Positions 4,432-13,766 of a DNA stretch of 20,773 bases are shown in pieces. The DNA lies in contig PATE01000072.1 of assembly GCA_002712305.1 (NCBI GenBank), positions 1 through 20,773 of the forward strand, read 5' to 3'. This stretch comes from Gemmatimonadota bacterium. Its GTDB lineage: Bacteria; Latescibacterota; UBA2968; UBA8231. Both the position numbers and the translations under genes were made by a program. The stretch's first letter is position 1; each line of letters begins with the position of its first letter. The notes under the pieces are model-generated. The model was given only the letters and a program-made list of their open reading frames with translations. It did no database searches and had not been told where the DNA came from.

Positions 4432-5478
4432 ATGGCGATCGACCTGTATTCACAGCCTCACCGGCGCTACAATGCCCTCAGCGATGAGTGGGTGCAGGTG
4501 TCCCCACACCGCAACCAGCGCCCCTGGCAGGGGCATCTGGATTCGCCGGTAGCGGATGATCGTCCCGCGCACGATCCGGCCTGCTCTCTGTGTCCGGGCA
4601 ACGAGCGCGCCGGTGGCCAGCGGAATCCTGACTTCGAGCAGGTCTTCGTCTTCGACAACGACTTTGCGGCATTGCTGGATGAGGGGCCCATCGAGGCGAC
4701 TTCGGCAGCCGAATCTGACGAGTCGCCGCTGCTGCAATCGGCCCCCGTCCGGGGAGCGTGTCGTGTCATCTGTTTTTCACCGAGACATGATCTGACGCTG
4801 GCGCAGATGTCGACCAAGGACATTGGAGCCGTCATCGACCTATGGGGTGCGCAGGTCGAAGAACTGAGCCAGCTCTATCGCTGGGTACAGGTCTTTGAGA
4901 ACAAAGGCGCCATCATGGGATGCTCGAACCCACACCCTCACGGACAGATCTGGGCCCTCGATGCGCTGCCAAATGAACCGGCTCGAGAAGACCGGACGCA
5001 GGCGGCCTACTACGACGAACACGGTTCGACCTTGCTGAGTGACTATGTCGAGTTGGAATGCGATCGGGCCGAGCGCATCGTCGAGGCCGACGAACACTGG
5101 GTGGCTCTGGTCCCGTTCTGGGCCGTGTGGCCCTTCGAGATTCTGCTGGCACCCCGTGTGCCCGTCGACCATCTCCATTCACTCGACGATGGTCAACGGC
5201 AGTCCCTCGCACACGTGATGCAGCGTTTGCTCCGTCGCTATGATGCGCTGTTTGCGACGTCCTTCCCCTACTCCATGGGGTGGCACGGAGCCCCCTCGGC
5301 ACAGCCGCGTGATCATTGGCACCTTCACGCACATTTCTATCCGCCGCTGCTGCGCTCGGCGTCGGTGAGGAAGTTCATGGTGGGCTACGAGCTGCTGGCT
5401 GAGGCACAGCGCGATCTGACGCCGGAGCAGGCGGCGGCGCGTTTGCGTGAACTACCCGTACCGGGAGAAAACCCGTGA
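4432..5478 (+). CDS. galT: Galactose-1-phosphate uridylyltransferase
   Basis: Leloir pathway enzyme: UDP-glucose + Gal-1-P gives Glc-1-P + UDP-galactose, in the cytoplasm. 348 aa, the same length as E. coli GalT. Seen: the zinc-ligand pair Cys51-x-x-Cys54 (CSLCPGNE); the active-site GCSNPHPHGQIW with His168-Pro-His170, where His170 is the expected nucleophile that becomes uridylylated; and the C-terminal HWHLHAHFYPP (res. 295-305). ATG 4432 is chosen because AAGGAG (4417-4422) lies 9 bases upstream and the start matches the family; a further upstream TTG at 4408 adds an unlikely MRGKETTA. The stop overlaps the galK GTG start (GTGA, 5475-5478). Confidence 0.96.
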   Translation: MAIDLYSQPHRRYNALSDEWVQVSPHRNQRPWQGHLDSPVADDRPAHDPACSLCPGNERAGGQRNPDFEQVFVFDNDFAALLDEGPIEATSAAESDESPLLQSAPVRGACRVICFSPRHDLTLAQMSTKDIGAVIDLWGAQVEELSQLYRWVQVFENKGAIMGCSNPHPHGQIWALDALPNEPAREDRTQAAYYDEHGSTLLSDYVELECDRAERIVEADEHWVALVPFWAVWPFEILLAPRVPVDHLHSLDDGQRQSLAHVMQRLLRRYDALFATSFPYSMGWHGAPSAQPRDHWHLHAHFYPPLLRSASVRKFMVGYELLAEAQRDLTPEQAAARLRELPVPGENP

Positions 5479-6630
5479 CGTTGAGCTTGCAGGACCAGGC
5501 GACCCAGGCTTTTACCGATGCCTTTGGCCGCCCGCCCGATGCACTCGTGCGGGCGCCAGGTCGCGTCAACTTGATCGGTGAGCACACCGACTACAATGAT
5601 GGTTTTGTCCTGCCGCTGGCCATCGATCGCGCCGTCTGGATCGCCATCGGTGCCCGATCGGATGAGATGATTCGAATCCACTCTCTTGATTTTGAACAGA
5701 CCGAGCAGTTCGATGTCGACAGCGTCCGGCAATTGCCGACGGCGCCGGCCACAGCCTGGATCGACTATGTCCGTGGCACAGTCTGGTCCCTGCTGCAGGA
5801 GGGGTTGTCGGTCACCGGATGGGATGGAGCCATGGTCGGCGATGTTCCCATCGGGGCAGGTCTCTCCTCTTCCGCCGCCGTGGAACTGGCCGTCGCTCGT
5901 GCGTGTGCCACCATCGGCGATCTTCCCTGGGACCCTGCTCGGATGGCTGTGTGCAGTCAGCGGGCGGAGAATCGCTGGGTCGGTGTCAACTGCGGAATCA
6001 TGGATCAGATGATCAGCGCCGCCGGTGCCGAAGGGCGCGCGCTGCTGCTCGACTGTCGAACCCTCGAGACCGACCTGGTACCACTGCCCGATTCGACAAA
6101 CATCGTCATTCTCGACACGGGAAGCACGACGCGGTCTCGTCGACTCCGCCTACAATGAGCGACGCAGCCAGTGCGAAGCTGCTGCGGCTCACTTCGACGT
6201 GACGGCCCTGCGCGATGTCACGCTGGCAACGTTTCAGGCGCGCGGCGAACTCGACGAGACGACACGCAGACGGGCGCGCCACGTCATCTCCGAAAACGAA
6301 CACACCACCGCGGCGGCGGCGGCCATGCGGGAAGGGGACAAAGCGTTGCTCGGATCGCTCATGGATGCAAGTCACCTTAGTCTGAAAGAGGATTTCGAGG
6401 TGTCCTCCGAAGCTCTCGATGTGATGGTCGAATGTGCGCGTCCGGTCGCCGGCTGCCTTGGTGCACGAATGACGGGAGCTGTTTTTGGTGGCTGCACCGT
6501 CGCCCTCGTGGAGGCCACACAGACGCAGGGCTTCTGTGCAGAAGTGGGCGCTGCCTATCAGACTCGAAGTGGGCACGAGCCCCAACTGTACGTCTGCAGA
6601 GCCACGGACGGCGCCGCCGTGGTCGGGTAA
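5475..6630 (+). pseudogene. galK: Galactokinase, frameshifted
   Basis: GHMP-family kinase that phosphorylates galactose at C1. Frame 1 (5475-6158) carries GRVNLIGEHTDY (res. 29-40), the P-loop-like PIGAGLSSSAAVE (125-137) and GIMDQ with catalytic Asp177. It then derails at DTGSTTRSRRLRLQ and stops at TGA 6156-6158. The rest lies in the +1 frame from about 6124 to TAA 6628 (..RRGLVDSAYNERRSQCE to the C-terminus). Deleting one base between 6117 and 6127, for example one A of GGGAAG, rebuilds 384 aa with DTGARRGLVDSAYNERR; E. coli GalK has 382. The third motif reads TGAVFGGC (Val codon GTT at 6481) where the family has GAGFGGC. GTG start with GGGAG at 5462-5466. It overlaps galT by 4 bp and lies 2 bp before the methyltransferase. 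Confidence 0.88.
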
Positions 6631-8586: not shown

Positions 8587-8683
8587 TCCTCCCGACTCGT
8601 GATGGCCGATTCCGCCATTGGCTGGCGACTCACACCACTGGGCGATCGGTTCGGCTCCGGGTCAGCTTTCCTAAAGTCATCTG

Positions 8684-8712: not shown

Positions 8713-8759
8713 CAACGGTACGGCCGTTGTTATCACAAGCCCTAAGACGAGGGCTTGTG
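8713..8759 (+). other. Two adjacent hairpins in the leader of the HTH gene
   Basis: Hairpin 1 is CAACGG-tacgg-CCGTTG (8713-8729). Hairpin 2 is a perfect 10-bp stem, CACAAGCCCT-aagacg-AGGGCTTGTG (8734-8759). No U tract follows hairpin 2 (TTGCCCCCTCACC), so an ordinary intrinsic terminator is unlikely. The pair sits 43 bp before the ATG of the HTH gene, so it may be a structured leader or, as DNA, a pair of operators. I match it to no known riboswitch class. Confidence 0.5.
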
Positions 8760-8801: not shown

Positions 8802-8981
8802 ATGAATCGCGGCTATGATCAGGAAACGATCGAACGAGTTGCACGGATGTATCGGAGCAATGGAGATGCGTCGAAGGCACTCGGCATCACGCTGCGCAGC
8901 TTCAGCCGGCTGTGCACGAAGTATGGAATCGAGACGCCCTACGCCAAACGCTGCCGACAACTGCACAGCTGCCGAAATTGA
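8802..8981 (+). CDS. Stand-alone Fis/NtrC-type helix-turn-helix protein
   Basis: 59 aa. The sequence NGDASKALGITLRSFSRLCTKYGIETP (about res. 20-46) matches the Fis-family helix-turn-helix that forms the C-terminal DNA-binding end of sigma-54 activators such as NtrC and PspF (pattern A-x-x-L-G-I-x-x-x-[ST]-[LF]-x-R-x-x-K-Y-G-I). A helix-forming lead (YDQETIERVARMYRS) precedes it; the tail is short, basic and contains two Cys. There is no AAA+ ATPase domain, so it cannot itself open a sigma-54 complex. GAGAGGA (8784-8790) lies 11 bases before ATG 8802, somewhat far. It sits upstream of a sigma-54 promoter with repeated palindromes. Function as a DNA-binding regulator is inference; similarity to the HTH class is direct. 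Confidence 0.65.
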   Translation: MNRGYDQETIERVARMYRSNGDASKALGITLRSFSRLCTKYGIETPYAKRCRQLHSCRN

Positions 8982-9033
8982 ATTACTCGATGATCCTCCA
9001 TCGAGACGCCCAACCTTCACCATGATTCGACGC

Positions 9034-9051
9034 TGAGACGGCCTCGTCTCA
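9034..9051 (+). other. Hairpin after the HTH gene
   Basis: TGAGACG-gcct-CGTCTCA, a perfect 7-bp stem with a 4-base loop, 53 bp after the HTH stop codon. No U tract follows (ATCCCGTGC). It could be a factor-dependent stop, an mRNA 3'-end stabiliser or an operator. Confidence 0.35.
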
Positions 9052-9093
9052 ATCCCGTGCAGAATCCCCTTGGGGTCCACCCTGGTCGAGCAC

Positions 9094-9109
9094 TGGCACC
9101 GAGTTTGTT
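9094..9109 (+). promoter_or_regulatory. Candidate sigma-54 promoter for the small membrane protein
   Basis: TGGCACCGAGTTTGTT has a perfect -24 TGGCAC and the right spacing, but the -12 reads TTGTT rather than TTGCW. It lies 32 bases upstream of ATG 9142, so a transcript starting about 12 bases downstream would carry the AGGAGG ribosome site. It is weaker than the pspA site at 9589. Confidence 0.35.
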
Positions 9110-9130
9110 AGGGAGACACCTCGTAACCCG

Positions 9131-9136
9131 AGGAGG
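9131..9136 (+). promoter_or_regulatory. Full-consensus ribosome-binding site
   Basis: AGGAGG, the complete anti-16S complement, lies 5 bases before ATG 9142. It is the strongest Shine-Dalgarno in the window and is the main reason to accept the 56-aa frame that follows. Confidence 0.75.
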
Positions 9137-9141
9137 ATCCC

Positions 9142-9312
9142 ATGGACCTGCCACGAACCGATCAGATGCGCCGCGAGATGTCGGAGATGGGCAATCTTTA
9201 TCTGCTCGTCATCATGCTCGTACTGATCGGCGCAATCCTCGTCCAATTCGCTCCACGCGCCGAGGTGGCGACGCCGATCGCGGCTCCTGCCATCGAAATT
9301 GGCCCCTTCTGA
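9142..9312 (+). CDS. Small single-pass membrane protein (56 aa)
   Basis: The frame begins MDLPRTDQMRREMSEMGN and carries one strong transmembrane helix, LYLLVIMLVLIGAILVQF (about res. 19-36), followed by an Ala/Pro-rich tail ending ..IEIGPF. Positive residues (Arg5, Arg10, Arg11) precede the helix, so an N-inside, C-outside orientation is expected. The start is fixed by AGGAGG 5 bases upstream. I recognise no family; it is not similar to PspB or PspC. A sigma-54-like site lies upstream and a strong hairpin follows the stop, so it looks like an independent small transcription unit beside the pspA operon. It may belong to the same envelope-stress response; that is inference from position and promoter type. 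Confidence 0.62.
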   Translation: MDLPRTDQMRREMSEMGNLYLLVIMLVLIGAILVQFAPRAEVATPIAAPAIEIGPF

Positions 9313-9327
9313 TTCTGCCTCACATCT

Positions 9328-9359
9328 GATCGGCACGAATGGTGATCGGCACAAATGGC
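9328..9359 (+). repeat. Tandem 16-bp direct repeat
   Basis: GATCGGCACGAATGGT is followed at once by GATCGGCACAAATGGC, matching at 14 of 16 positions. The second copy runs into the left arm of the 13-bp hairpin at 9354-9383. Confidence 0.6.
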
Positions 9360-9383
9360 CCGCAGCAGCCGCTGCGGGCCATT
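9354..9383 (+). terminator. Strong 13-bp hairpin, probable terminator
   Basis: AATGGCCCGCAGC-agcc-GCTGCGGGCCATT is a perfect 13-bp stem with a 4-base loop, 41 bp after the stop of the small membrane protein. The trailing bases CGTCGTTCTGTG are only moderately T-rich, so termination efficiency is uncertain. It separates the small gene from the pspA promoter region. Confidence 0.6.
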
Positions 9384-9442
9384 CGTCGTTCTGTGTCCCG
9401 ACAGGTTTCTGTCGCCGAGATATCTGCGTCGTCTGACTCTAT

Positions 9443-9511
9443 GGCGGGTCGCCGAACTTGGCGGGTCACCGAAATGGCGCTGTCCGCCATCCAAGTGGCG
9501 GGAGCGGCGAT
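9443..9511 (+). promoter_or_regulatory. Cluster of repeated palindromes, candidate activator binding sites for pspA
   Basis: Two 17-bp tandem copies, TGGCGGGTCGCCGAACT (9443-9459) and TGGCGGGTCACCGAAAT (9460-9476), match at 15 of 17 positions. Each holds a palindromic core GGCG-GGT-CGCC (the second has one changed base). They are followed by TGGCG-ctgtc-CGCCA (9476-9490) and a partial copy TGGCGGGAGCGGCGA (9497-9511). The cluster lies about 90-160 bp upstream of the sigma-54 -12 element, the usual distance for upstream activating sequences of PspF/NtrC-type activators, and the AT-rich stretch between could bend. No coding frame here looks real. Confidence 0.55.
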
Positions 9512-9534
9512 ATTCGGTCAAATCCTGATCTCGA

Positions 9535-9572
9535 AGAAAAATCTATAAATAAAGTATATACAACATGTTAAG
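9535..9572 (+). promoter_or_regulatory. AT-rich stretch between activator sites and promoter
   Basis: This is the most AT-rich run in the window (AGAAAAATCTATAAATAAAG and on to ..CAACATGTTAAG) in otherwise GC-rich DNA. It lies exactly between the palindrome cluster and the sigma-54 promoter, where IHF-type bending proteins act at such promoters. ATACAACATGTTA matches the IHF consensus only partly (about 7 of 9 defined positions), so no specific site is claimed. Confidence 0.4.
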
Positions 9573-9588
9573 AGACTCTGTCTGTGGC

Positions 9589-9604
9589 TGGCACGAGGCT
9601 TGCT
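9589..9604 (+). promoter_or_regulatory. Sigma-54 promoter of the pspA operon
   Basis: TGGCACGAGGCTTGCT is a full match to the sigma-54 consensus TGGCACGNNNNTTGCW: -24 TGGCACG, a 4-bp spacer and -12 TTGCT. Transcription should start near 9615, about 40 bases before the pspA ATG. Sigma-54 control of pspA is established in Enterobacteria. Transcription would require an AAA+ activator, which is not encoded in this window. Confidence 0.88.
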
Positions 9605-9656
9605 AAGAGGTCTCGTGTCAGAATCGTCTGAGCAAGTCGAACACGGGAGAAACATG

Positions 9657-10415
9657 ATGATCAAAACTCTGGACCGCATCAGCCACATCCTCCGCTCGAA
9701 TGTCAACGAGGTCCTCGACCGTCTCGAAGACCCTGAAAAGATGGTGCGCCAGATGGTGCGTGACATGGAAGCGGCCGTCGACAGAGCCGTGGGGGCCGTG
9801 AGCACGGCCGTCGCCGATCAGCGTCGCCTGGCCAAAGAAAAGGCGGCCACGCGGGAGCGGATCGAGAACATGCACGCGAAAGCCACTCGTGCTCTCGAAC
9901 GGGGCGACGAAGCTCTGGCCCGGCAAGCGCTGGCACGCAAGGTCGTTCTCGAGGAAACGCTGGCCGGCATCGAACCTGCCCTCAATCAGGGGCAGCAGAC
10001 CGTGGAAGATCTGCGAGCAAAGCTGAGCATGCTTCGAGATGATCTTCGCGATGCGCAGAATCGTCAGGGAGCGCTGATCGCTCGTCTCCGCAACGCCCGC
10101 CGCGCCGACGAACAGCATGCGGATGTGATTGGGGAGCATGACCCTGTCAAGGATGTGCAGAATCTGGAGCGCCGCCTGCAGGAGAAGCGCAGCGAGTTTG
10201 ATCGTCTCCGCCAGCGGCTGGACCTGGCCGACGAAACCGACGCAGCGACGCAAGAGGTTCGCCGCGATATCTTCGGTGACGGCGGTCTAGGCCACGCATT
10301 TGAGCAACTTGCCATTCGCAAGCGCGTCGACGCCGAGTTGGCGGCACTGCGTGGGGAGAAGCCGGAGGAGGCGACACCGGAAGCGCCAAAGACGGAGAAG
10401 ACCGATGCAAACTGA
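9657..10415 (+). CDS. pspA: Phage shock protein A (PspA/IM30 family)
   Basis: 252 aa, almost entirely alpha-helical and coiled coil, peripheral on the inner face of the cytoplasmic membrane. PspA/Vipp1 proteins are ESCRT-III relatives that polymerise on stressed membranes and limit proton leakage. Seen: the N-terminal amphipathic start MIKTLDRISHILRSNVNEVL, the family motif LEDPEKMVRQMVRDME (about res. 21-36), a long helical hairpin with VADQRRLAKEKA and DEALARQALARK, then a Glu/Pro/Lys-rich tail (PEEATPEAPKTEKTDA). Two ATGs lie in tandem (9654, 9657); 9657 has better spacing (7) from GGGAG 9645-9649. It overlaps the TM2 gene by 11 bp and is preceded by a sigma-54 promoter. Confidence 0.93.
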   Translation: MIKTLDRISHILRSNVNEVLDRLEDPEKMVRQMVRDMEAAVDRAVGAVSTAVADQRRLAKEKAATRERIENMHAKATRALERGDEALARQALARKVVLEETLAGIEPALNQGQQTVEDLRAKLSMLRDDLRDAQNRQGALIARLRNARRADEQHADVIGEHDPVKDVQNLERRLQEKRSEFDRLRQRLDLADETDAATQEVRRDIFGDGGLGHAFEQLAIRKRVDAELAALRGEKPEEATPEAPKTEKTDAN

Positions 10416-10764
10416 CGTGTCGCCAAAATCGCGCCTGGCTGCAGGCCTGTTGTGTTTCTTCTTTGGATGGTTGGGAGTGCATCGCTTCTACGTCGGGAAG
10501 GTGGGAACGGCGATCCTCATGGTGCTTACCATCGGTGGTTTTGGCGTGTGGGCGACCATCGATCTGATCTTCATCATCGTCGGTGCCTTCCGCGACGCAG
10601 AAGGACGACTGCTGCGTCGATGGGAAGAACCGGATGCCGCCCCGGCCCGTGTAGGGGAACTGCAGGGCCGGATGGACCGGATCGACCGGCAACTTACCGA
10701 TCTCCAGGGCGTCCTCCTGGACATGAGCGACCGAGTCGATGAGCGCGTCACCTACCCCGCATAG
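10405..10764 (+). CDS. TM2-domain membrane protein with C-terminal coiled coil
   Basis: 119 aa. The N-terminal two-thirds is a TM2 domain: KSRLAAGLLCFFFGWLGVHRFYVGK (first helix and the GxHRFYxGK motif), then GTAILMVLTIGGFGVWATIDLIFIIVGAFRD (second helix with the W-x-x-I-D-L-I motif). The C-terminal third, ARVGELQGRMDRIDRQLTDL and onward, is a heptad-like amphipathic helix predicted to be cytoplasmic. ATG 10405 lies inside the end of pspA (11-bp overlap) with GGAG 7 bases upstream, so the two proteins are translationally coupled. By position it may play the membrane-anchor/sensor part that PspB and PspC play in E. coli, contacting PspA through its coiled coil; that is inference. Confidence 0.87.
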   Translation: MQTDVSPKSRLAAGLLCFFFGWLGVHRFYVGKVGTAILMVLTIGGFGVWATIDLIFIIVGAFRDAEGRLLRRWEEPDAAPARVGELQGRMDRIDRQLTDLQGVLLDMSDRVDERVTYPA

Positions 10765-10831: not shown

Positions 10832-11644
10832 ATGTCCCGTCTTCGCGATAGAACAGCTGCCCTATCCTGGCGGCCCTGGCGGCCATCTGCCACCCTCGCC
10901 GAACACCTCCCGCCGGTTGATGATAGGCCTGGCGATGATGGACTTTCCTTCGACGATGTCCTCGCAGGACGGACCCACAGCCCTGATCTGGGTCGTCGGC
11001 TCAGTTTCCTGGTGATCCGGTGGGTGGGGTGCTGTGTGGGTGGAGTCCTTGCACTACTGGTGGCCGTGCGTGCGCAGCTGGCTATCCTCGATGTTCAGAC
11101 GGTCTCGGGTGATCTGACGGCAGACTGGCTCGCTGTGGCGGGTGGTCTGGCCGCGGGTGGGTTGGTGCTGTTTGCCTCGCTCAGACTTGTGCTACGGTTT
11201 GGCTCTGTGCGACGTGCTGGCTCGCTGCTTGTTGGGTTGCCACTTGTGATGGTCCTGATGGGGAGTCTGGCCACGACCCATTTTCCACCGAGCAACTTCA
11301 AGAGTGACGAGGTCCGTGCAGAATGGACCCATCTGCACCCGACCCTCCGCCACGCTCTGTGGGTCGCGCGTCTCGGCGACCCAACTCTCGTGCTGACCGA
11401 TCTTCGACGTGGCCCGCACGACTATCGTCTCATGGGACTGCGGTTGCCCTTTACCTCCCGGCACTATCCACAATCCGACGGATATGCCCACGCCGTCGAT
11501 CTGCGCGTCCACGACGCGGGAGATCTGCAGAACTGGGCCCGTCAGGGTCTGTTTCTTCTGATGGGGCTACGCGCCGAGCGTCATGTGGGCACGGCGGATC
11601 ATCTGCACATCTCTTTGCCGGTGAAGGACCCTTCCGCCATCTGA
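10832..11644 (+). CDS. Membrane protein with M15-peptidase-like C-terminal domain
   Basis: 270 aa. A proline- and charge-rich N-terminus (res. 1-55) is followed by three hydrophobic helices: about 58-86, 99-122 and 129-148. The soluble remainder begins near 150. Its layout, HLHPTLRHALWVAR, LVLTDLRRGPHDY, SDGYAHAVDLRV and DHLHISLP, resembles D-Ala-D-Ala carboxypeptidase/peptidoglycan peptidases of the M15 type, whose zinc ligands are His, Asp and His. Candidate ligands are His220 or His211, Asp223 and His257 or His259. The classic S-x-H-x-x-G-x-A-x-D spacing is not conserved, so the enzyme assignment is weak and it may be inactive or another family. ATG 10832 was chosen as the first good start; no strong ribosome site is seen. 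Confidence 0.55.
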   Translation: MSRLRDRTAALSWRPWRPSATLAEHLPPVDDRPGDDGLSFDDVLAGRTHSPDLGRRLSFLVIRWVGCCVGGVLALLVAVRAQLAILDVQTVSGDLTADWLAVAGGLAAGGLVLFASLRLVLRFGSVRRAGSLLVGLPLVMVLMGSLATTHFPPSNFKSDEVRAEWTHLHPTLRHALWVARLGDPTLVLTDLRRGPHDYRLMGLRLPFTSRHYPQSDGYAHAVDLRVHDAGDLQNWARQGLFLLMGLRAERHVGTADHLHISLPVKDPSAI

Positions 11645-11777: not shown

Positions 11778-13766
11778 ATGGATATGAAATGCAGGATGGC
11801 CCTCGCTATGGGCCTGATGCTCTGCACCGTCTCCGACTCCACGGCGCAGATCGTCCACATATGGGACCTGGCGCAGACCGATCGACCAGGTCAATTCACC
11901 ATCTACAATCCCGATCCGCAGGACGCCCAGTTCGGCACGCCCGTTCGCTCGGGCGATCTGAATGGCGATGGCCTCGATGATTTGGTGGTGTCCGCCATGG
12001 CCGGTGATGGCCCCGCCTCCGACCTCAGAGCCAATGCGGGCGAGGTGGCCGTCTATTTCAGTCAGGGCGTGATCGCAGGCACCGCTGATCTGCGCGAGCC
12101 CATGGACAATGTGGTCACCGTCTATGGGGAAGCATCGATGGACATCTTTGGGATCAAGACGGAGGTCGACGACGTTGACGCAGATGGCCGTCAGGACCTA
12201 CTGGTCGGTGCCTTCTACGCCGACGGGCCTTCCGGACTCGACGCAGGAAAACTCTATGTCATCTCCGGTCATCTATTGTCGGCCCTGCTCGAGACCGGGG
12301 AGGATCTTGACCTGGCTGATCTGCCCATCGACGGCGTCACCGTCGTCCACGGCCCACAGGCTCGTTCCCGGCTGGGTGTGTGGATGGCCACCGGCGATGT
12401 CGATGGTGACGGGGTCTAGGACATCGTCGTCGGTGCTGACCAGGCCGGGAATGTCACCAGCTCTGATAGCGAAGCGGGGCAGACGTGGATCCTGTATGGA
12501 CCCCAGCGTTTTGGCGAGGTCATCGACCTGGCGGATCCTCCGGCAGAGGCGAGTGTCATCTACGGCGCTGACTTCCTCGATCACACCGGCTCCACCGTCG
12601 CCTGCGCTGATGTGGATGGCGACGGGTATGCCGACGCCGTCGTTGGCACCGGTGCCTACGGTACCCTGCGCAATGCATACGATGCGACGGGAGGCGCCGG
12701 GGACGGCCCCGACAATCTGCGTCCCCAGGCGGGGGAGATGTATGTCGTGTTCGGCAACGCCACCCGAGGCAGACGGGTCGATCTGAAGGCGTCCGTCGCT
12801 GGGACCGGCGAACAGGTCATGGTCATGTATGGCGCCGATGGCGGCGGCAATTCTCCCGACCGGTTGGGGGAGGAGATCGTCACGGCCGACATCGACGGTG
12901 ATGGGATGGGTGACCTGCTCGTCGGCGCCTATCGGGCCGATGGCCCCGACAATTCACGTCGCGATGCAGGAGACACGTATGTCGTGTTTGGTTCGCCCTC
13001 GCTCCGAGGTCGTGTGATCGACATGGCCGATCCGCCCACGGATGTGATCATCATCTATGGCGCCATGGAAGGGGCGATCTCGGGCGATTCCATCTCTGCC
13101 GGGGATATCCAGGGGGACGGCTTCGACGATCTGTTTATCGGCGTTCCGGGCGACGCGGGCCCCCTGGGGCGCCGCAATGCCGGCGGCATCGTCGTGATTT
13201 CGGGGGGACCCAACTTGCCACGAGTCATCGATCTGGCGGATCCGTCCGTACCGATTGTGTGGATCGAAGCACCTGACGTGAACGACTATTCCGGCTACTG
13301 GGCGACGGCGGGTGATATGGATGGGGACGGGCACGTGGATGTGATGCCCAATGGCATGGCGGGTGATGGTCCCTTCAACGTGCGCAACAACGCGGGCGAG
13401 CTGCATGTGATCAGCGGCGCTGAGTTGACCGGTTATCTCGCGCCCCGGCCTACAGCCATCCTAGAAGACGGACAATCTGCTGTCCCCTCTCAGATTTCAC
13501 TGACGGCGAATCATCCCAATCCCTTCAATTCGACGACCATCATCCCCTTCAGCCTTGTCGCCGACGGGGTCATCGATCTGTCGGTCTACGATCTGGTCGG
13601 CCGACACGTGCAACGACTGCGTTCTGCCTGGACGAAGGCTGGTCAGCATCATGTCCGTTGGGATGGGAGGGCCACAGACGGTTCGTCGGTGGCGTCGGGG
13701 CCGTATCTGGTACGCCTCGAGATGGCCGGCACGATCCTGACCCACAAGATGCTGCTGCTCAAGTGA
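11778..13766 (+). pseudogene. Secreted seven-repeat FG-GAP beta-propeller with T9SS sorting domain, interrupted by TAG
   Basis: The reading frame spans 663 codons with one in-frame TAG at 12417-12419 (codon 214); frame and similarity continue unbroken after it. An N-terminal signal peptide (MDMKCRMALAMGLMLCTVSDSTAQ) ends at about residue 24. Seven FG-GAP/integrin-type repeats follow, each with a D-x-[DN]-G-D-G-x-x-D-type calcium loop; examples are GDLNGDGLDDLVV, ADIDGDGMGDLLVG and GDMDGDGHVDV. The TAG falls inside repeat three, GDVDGDGV*DIVVGAD, where Glu or Asp is expected (GAG to TAG). The C-terminus from about 13497 (NHPNPFNSTTIIPFSLVADG, then YDLVGR.., ending HKMLLLK) is a type-A T9SS sorting domain. 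Predicted surface-exposed or secreted. Ligand unknown. It lies 42 bp upstream of the symporter. Confidence 0.85.

Follow-up and report, generated by a model that had tools for sequence, protein, structure and literature searches.

How might a sigma-54-dependent pspA gene be activated when the genes around it encode a free-standing helix-turn-helix (HTH) protein of the Fis/NtrC type but no AAA+ activator? The question arises from a contig of 20,773 nucleotides (C93; hereafter, the window) belonging to a 4.77-Mb genome, G000, that is 90.9% complete. We compared its psp locus with that of a genome from the same genus, G001, and sought relatives of the psp-type HTH among 47 genomes of the class; a second collection of flanked loci overlaps this first set partly in species. 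The lineage is uncultured and Latescibacterota-like; the HTH sequence retrieved named relatives that are metagenome-assembled genomes, entered in databases as Candidatus Latescibacterota or Gemmatimonadetes/Gemmatimonadota. A previous sequence-only reading had described an HTH gene, a gene for a 56-aa membrane protein, palindromes, a sigma-54 promoter, pspA, and a TM2 gene at 8802-10764, and all these parts are indeed present there. The locus order is HTH, an optional 56-aa protein, pspA, TM2, and a downstream membrane protein, and its genes and control sites in the window lie on the plus strand.

The pspA gene (9654-10415) encodes a PspA/IM30 protein of 253 aa matching PF04012 (PspA_IM30, E=5e-31). 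It is preceded by a perfect -24/-12 sigma-54 promoter, TGGCACGAGGCTTGCT (9589-9604), which recurs before most pspA genes across the class, and further upstream by twin upstream activator sites (UAS; 9475-9510), TGGCGCTGTCCGCCA at 9475-9489 and TGGCGGGAGCGGCGA at 9496-9510, with starts 21 bp apart and two weaker extra boxes beside them at about 9442-9473. Most pspA genes of the class have a -24/-12 element 60-150 bp upstream, and in family f1 this element is preceded by two 15-bp TGGCGN5CGCCA sites with starts mostly 21 bp apart, the twin sites lying about 115 bp upstream at sigma-54-promoted pspA. In genome scans, which were clean at up to 2 mismatches, with few places matching, and swamped by G+C-rich matches at 3, the strict twin pattern had a single mismatch-free match in the 4.77 Mb of G000, at the window pspA promoter. 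Because of this single match and its recurrence in relatives, the control sites of pspA exceed what chance would give. G001 likewise has its sole perfect match at the pspA promoter; two sites there have 1 mismatch, among them the HTH promoter. The gene for the sigma factor itself, rpoN, is present in G000. The proposal of a sigma-54-controlled psp module is thus borne out by the PF04012 match, the perfect promoter, and the twin UAS.

The activator is the more difficult part. The window module encodes no AAA+ domain, as the sequence-only reading had stated, and an AAA+ domain with a GAFTGA loop sought in the 59-aa HTH protein was absent, leaving the HTH only. Beyond the module, the statement fails. 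Relatives possess a second psp operon consisting of pspA, small membrane proteins, a TPR-histidine kinase, and a complete PspF-type protein of REC-AAA+-HTH architecture, and the pspA of this operon carries the same twin site as the window pspA. G001 has lost this second operon by deletion and retains an orphan PspF whose receiver domain is shortened (L224, 8710-10017). The HTH-linked PspA proteins fall into two groups apart from PspA of the PspF-bearing operon in a tree that contains several long branches and whose deeper order is unsure. The sequence-only reading had named a complete PspF beside another psp copy as a circumstance that would speak against its proposal, and the relatives come close to this arrangement, with PspF in their second operon and none found in G000. 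There, the best match in the search for a PspF orthologue reached 41% and the syntenic region is absent; PspF may have been lost or may lie outside the assembly, which is about 91% complete. Sites and activator also appear to have changed in parallel. The sister family f3 has TTGGTG-type sites and the PspF helix SYDQF, and f1 has TGGCG sites and the helix TYDRF, a correspondence which fits PspF reading these sites, although the independent cases are few.

These observations bear directly on the role first suggested for the HTH protein, namely that of a missing or replaced DNA contact of the activator. This role was not supported, as the relatives encode a PspF that is complete, HTH included, in an operon with the same twin site. 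A related form of the idea is a split activator, in which the HTH protein supplies the contact with DNA and brings an AAA+ protein without an HTH to the pspA promoter. Pairings of this kind can occur, since in G001 a member of the same HTH family immediately follows an AAA+ gene without an HTH (L157, 1883-2782). However, the L157 AAA+ protein has no GAFTGA loop, which action on sigma-54 requires, the AAA+ genes of G000 that are readable in full carry their own C-terminal HTH (the remaining two are broken or partial), and most paralogues of the HTH gene have no sigma-54 promoter nearby. Together with the complete PspF of the relatives, these points make a split activator improbable.

If the HTH protein is not the missing half of an activator, it might be asked whether it is functional at all. 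The gene (8802-8981) was recognized by its open reading frame, homology, and predicted structure as encoding a stand-alone Fis/NtrC-type HTH protein of 59 aa with four predicted helices. Between G000 and G001, the protein is 94.8% identical in amino acids and the gene has 18 nucleotide differences in synonymous codons against 6 in non-synonymous codons, with diverged flanks. This identity and the mostly synonymous changes identify the gene as genuine, and the comparison of the two sequences shows purifying selection. Full-length psp-type copies occur in 13 of the 47 class genomes, all within family f1 (genera g1, g5, and g7). By coordinates, the psp-type HTH gene adjoins pspA, sharing its contig and strand, in every one of these 13 genomes, and it lies beside pspA in 12/12 flanked loci from the second collection. 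The free-standing Fis-type HTH next to the module and its co-localization with pspA, both put forward from the window sequence, therefore hold across genera. The HTH gene is missing from several genera and survives in G005 only as a truncated remnant, which implies that it is dispensable there. Both facts would suit a non-functional passenger reading frame next to pspA, whereas its retention in three genera, the strong conservation of its amino acids, and a predicted regulated promoter of its own would not. Conservation largely refutes the passenger reading, which we consider very improbable.

The promoter region of the HTH gene suggests what kind of function might be expected. Twin UAS precede the gene (8603-8637), with TGGCCGATTCCGCCA at 8603-8617 and TGGCGACTCACACCA at 8623-8637, 20 bp apart and each with 1 mismatch to TGGCGN5CGCCA. 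They are followed by a degenerate sigma-54-like site, CGGTACGGCCGTTGTT (8716-8731), whose counterpart at the equivalent position in G001, GGGTACGACCGTTGCT, aligns with it. The twin site and the element at 8716-8731 had been overlooked in the sequence-only reading. In the window species, the site, with TTGTT as its -12 element, is below threshold, so that the HTH promoter may be weak there; most relatives have good -24/-12 elements at -60 to -91 before the gene. Allowing up to 3 mismatches, twin sites were present in 10/11 upstream regions of psp-type HTH genes and in 0/33 of other family members, with a shuffle expectation of about 0, and the psp-type copies of TGGCGN5CGCCA are 19-21 bp apart. 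A sigma-54 element was found within 110 bp of 10/11 psp-type HTH genes and of 3/33 other members (expectation 1.3%). One of these three, L093, is a psp-type gene truncated at the end of a contig, leaving L090 and L119 as the only real exceptions among non-psp members with a strong sigma-54 promoter. Since the twin sites of pspA recur at the HTH gene, usually together with a sigma-54 promoter of its own, this gene is probably among the targets of the activator and induced by stress.

From this comparison of sequences, we consider it likely that the psp locus is activated in trans by PspF and that the HTH protein is an induced secondary regulator and not the DNA contact of the activator. Under envelope stress, a PspF-type REC-AAA+-HTH protein would activate the pspA and HTH promoters in trans. 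PspA would then protect the membrane, possibly anchored there by the psp tail of TM2. Made simultaneously, the 59-aa HTH protein could act as a small secondary regulator of transcription, most likely tuning the psp promoters or its own synthesis by feedback. Counted against this model are the lack of a detected PspF in the incomplete G000 assembly, the degenerate -12 element of the HTH promoter, the HTH gene of G012, which has a sigma-54 promoter and no clear twin UAS, and the truncation in G005.

The AlphaFold2 model of the HTH protein is a four-helix HTH with a mean pLDDT of 81, whose Foldseek neighbours include the DNA-binding domains of NtrC4, TyrR, and Fis with TM-scores of about 0.6 and weak E-values near 1, owing to the small size of the protein. 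The TM-score was 0.61 and the r.m.s.d. 1.1 with NtrC4 (3e7l), and 0.61 and 0.9 with Fis (4fis). Profile comparison by hhalign of the small HTH with the HTHs of bEBPs yielded E-values of 1e-6 to 5e-8. The HTH protein remained below the cut-offs of the Pfam families HTH_8, HTH_50, and RWP-RK, and a sequence search of the PDB returned chance matches only. By predicted fold and profile similarity, which it has in common with the Fis, TyrR, and NtrC4 domains, the small HTH falls in the Fis/NtrC class with no special closeness to PspF. A specific derivation from the PspF HTH was considered and rejected, as the profile comparison ranked PspF no better than other bEBP HTHs. Unlike the Fis, TyrR, and NtrC4 domains, the HTH proteins of this family are free-standing, about 55-85 aa long, with an Arg-rich C-terminal tail, and form an expanded paralogue family in one lineage. 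Genomes of f1 contain up to nine members, and none was detected in other families of the class among the 47 genomes.

One specific form of the preferred model is a feedback brake, in which the HTH protein binds the twin palindromes of PspF, displaces PspF, and thereby limits psp induction and its own synthesis. The same twin sites at the HTH promoter, the fold class shared with the HTH of the activator, and the lack of an AAA+ domain are what such a brake might require. The recognition helices differ, however, with TLRSFSRL in the small HTH and TYDRFRHL in PspF, and paralogues with a similar helix occupy loci without TGGCG sites, so that we regard displacement of PspF as possible rather than probable. 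A binding motif common to all family members was sought, and nothing stood clearly above shuffles except the TGGCGN5CGCCA of psp-type genes. Because the motif search identified no binding site for the HTH protein itself, feedback on psp is something we infer. With similar reserve, the HTH protein could be a second-tier regulator, induced together with psp and controlling genes elsewhere, so that envelope stress would be coupled to a different response, its position beside pspA reflecting co-regulation only. The other family members mostly adjoin unrelated genes, mostly without sigma-54 promoters, and head or flank them as local regulators do: one precedes an RND efflux operon, one a GntR/ABC operon, and one lies between an aminotransferase gene and an SSB gene. 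Yet the strict adjacency to pspA in 13/13 genomes suggests a role in cis, and no candidate regulon was found. Control of genes elsewhere is about as possible as the feedback brake.

Returning to activation by PspF in trans, the window locus is, judged by its genes and sites, most likely a second, lineage-specific Psp locus and a variant of the known stress response. As in the Psp systems of E. coli and Yersinia (pspF, pspABC, and pspG), pspA has a sigma-54 promoter preceded by activator sites, and a PspF-type activator is found in the relatives. A further target promoter distant from the operon is another shared feature, pspG being the E. coli case (PMC9239133). In contrast to the E. coli and Yersinia systems, the activator of the relatives carries a receiver domain and is encoded downstream in a separate psp operon that also contains a TPR-histidine kinase gene, no PspB/PspC Pfam domains were detected in the tested sister-operon proteins, a TM2 protein is present, and an extra stand-alone HTH gene appears to be part of the regulon. 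Finding pspA beside HTH regulators, histidine kinases, and membrane partners, as here, is a recognized theme in catalogued PSP gene neighbourhoods (Ravi et al. 2024, PMC11237479; Popp et al. 2022, PMC9239133). Neither a TM2 partner nor Latescibacterota appears in the main texts of these two surveys, and their passages on the subject contain no stand-alone Fis-type HTH. Literature searches for TM2 with PspA, Latescibacter with PspA, and a stand-alone Fis HTH with sigma-54 returned nothing relevant. The locus is an example, outside Proteobacteria, of a Psp regulon whose activator, activator site, and sigma-54 promoter can be linked to one another at the sequence level and whose conserved members include a small stand-alone HTH protein. 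If the HTH protein modulates the enhancer, it would give sigma-54 promoters a simple, naturally occurring means of feedback. A fuller version, which we put forward only tentatively and as somewhat doubtful, is that an induced free-standing DNA-binding domain, drawn from a lineage-specific mini-HTH family, occupies a sigma-54 enhancer and tunes the activator.

The membrane proteins of the locus are less uniform than its control sites. The single-TM protein of 56 aa (9142-9312) is preceded by a sigma-54-like site, TGGCACCGAGTTTGTT (9094-9109), with a degenerate -12 having GT for GC; in G005, a similar element, TGGCACGCCCTTCGCA, lies before the homologue. This homologue, 36% identical, was found only in the pspA-TM2 locus of G005, one other genus, and the 56-aa gene is absent between HTH and pspA in G001. 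The gene is therefore not generally conserved and forms an optional part of the locus. After it lies a perfect 10-bp inverted repeat, GGCCCGCAGC-AGCC-GCTGCGGGCC (9357-9380), a possible terminator with no clear T-run, and a similar G+C-rich inverted repeat occupies the same place in G005. Downstream of TM2, a membrane protein of 270 aa (10832-11644) has no Pfam family; tblastn found it at 31-57% identity in ten loci, and it is conserved downstream of second-locus pspA in relatives. The TM2 protein (10405-10764; 119 aa; PF05154, E=8e-20) has a C-terminal coiled tail. It had been proposed to replace PspB/C as the membrane anchor, and the tested small membrane proteins of the sister operons do not match the PspB/PspC Pfam models. 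A profile of the coiled tail, built from the single-TM proteins that the sister psp operons encode, finds TM2 proteins as well (E 1e-9 to 1e-3), and since the tail is common to both, TM2 is a plausible membrane anchor of PspA. The same profile matches large CBM9-TM proteins whose genes follow TM2 in G001, G005, and G015. One coiled tail on TM2, CBM9-TM, and single-TM psp partners suggests a common docking element.

Class-wide, the activator boxes of the pspA promoters shift from TGGCG to TTGGTG between families, and a Q/R change in the recognition helix of PspF, the REC-AAA+-HTH activator of the second psp operon in relatives, parallels this shift. In the same-genus genome G001, the psp operon has been deleted from the interval between a transporter gene and PspF (locus L224, 7170-10017, contig C71), and the PspF left behind has a truncated receiver domain and is possibly constitutive.

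The same genome encodes a sigma-54-activator-like AAA+ protein that has neither a GAFTGA loop nor an HTH (L157, 1883-2782, contig C61). A gene of the small HTH family comes directly after it, at about 2790-2978, and the two adjoining genes might constitute a split regulator. Upstream of two further HTH paralogues (loci L090 and L119), both unlinked to pspA, strong sigma-54 promoters lie at -67/-69. The psp twin sites are missing there, which implies that activators other than that of psp are involved. In L137 (G007, contig C63), two genes of the family lie in divergent orientation at about 5.0-7.3 kb, one of them immediately 5' of an RND efflux operon.

Three loci of relatives carry, 3' of TM2, a protein that has, besides a CBM9-like region, a single TM helix and the coiled tail common to the psp membrane partners (L039, 997-2670, minus strand; L040, 2139-3509, minus strand; L041, 6100-7476, plus strand), which could be an envelope-glycan sensor linked to PspA. 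Unlike in relatives, this gene is absent from the window between TM2 and the next gene. The unassigned membrane protein at 10832-11644 of the window, without a Pfam match, is conserved 3' of the second-locus pspA in ten relatives.

Elsewhere in the window, the galactokinase frame (5475-6630) is apparently broken into two overlapping frames, 5475-6158 and 6025-6630, a split attributable to a frameshift or an assembly error. The FG-GAP repeat protein gene (11778-13766) contains an in-frame stop near 12417-12419, and the same frame restarts at 12612.
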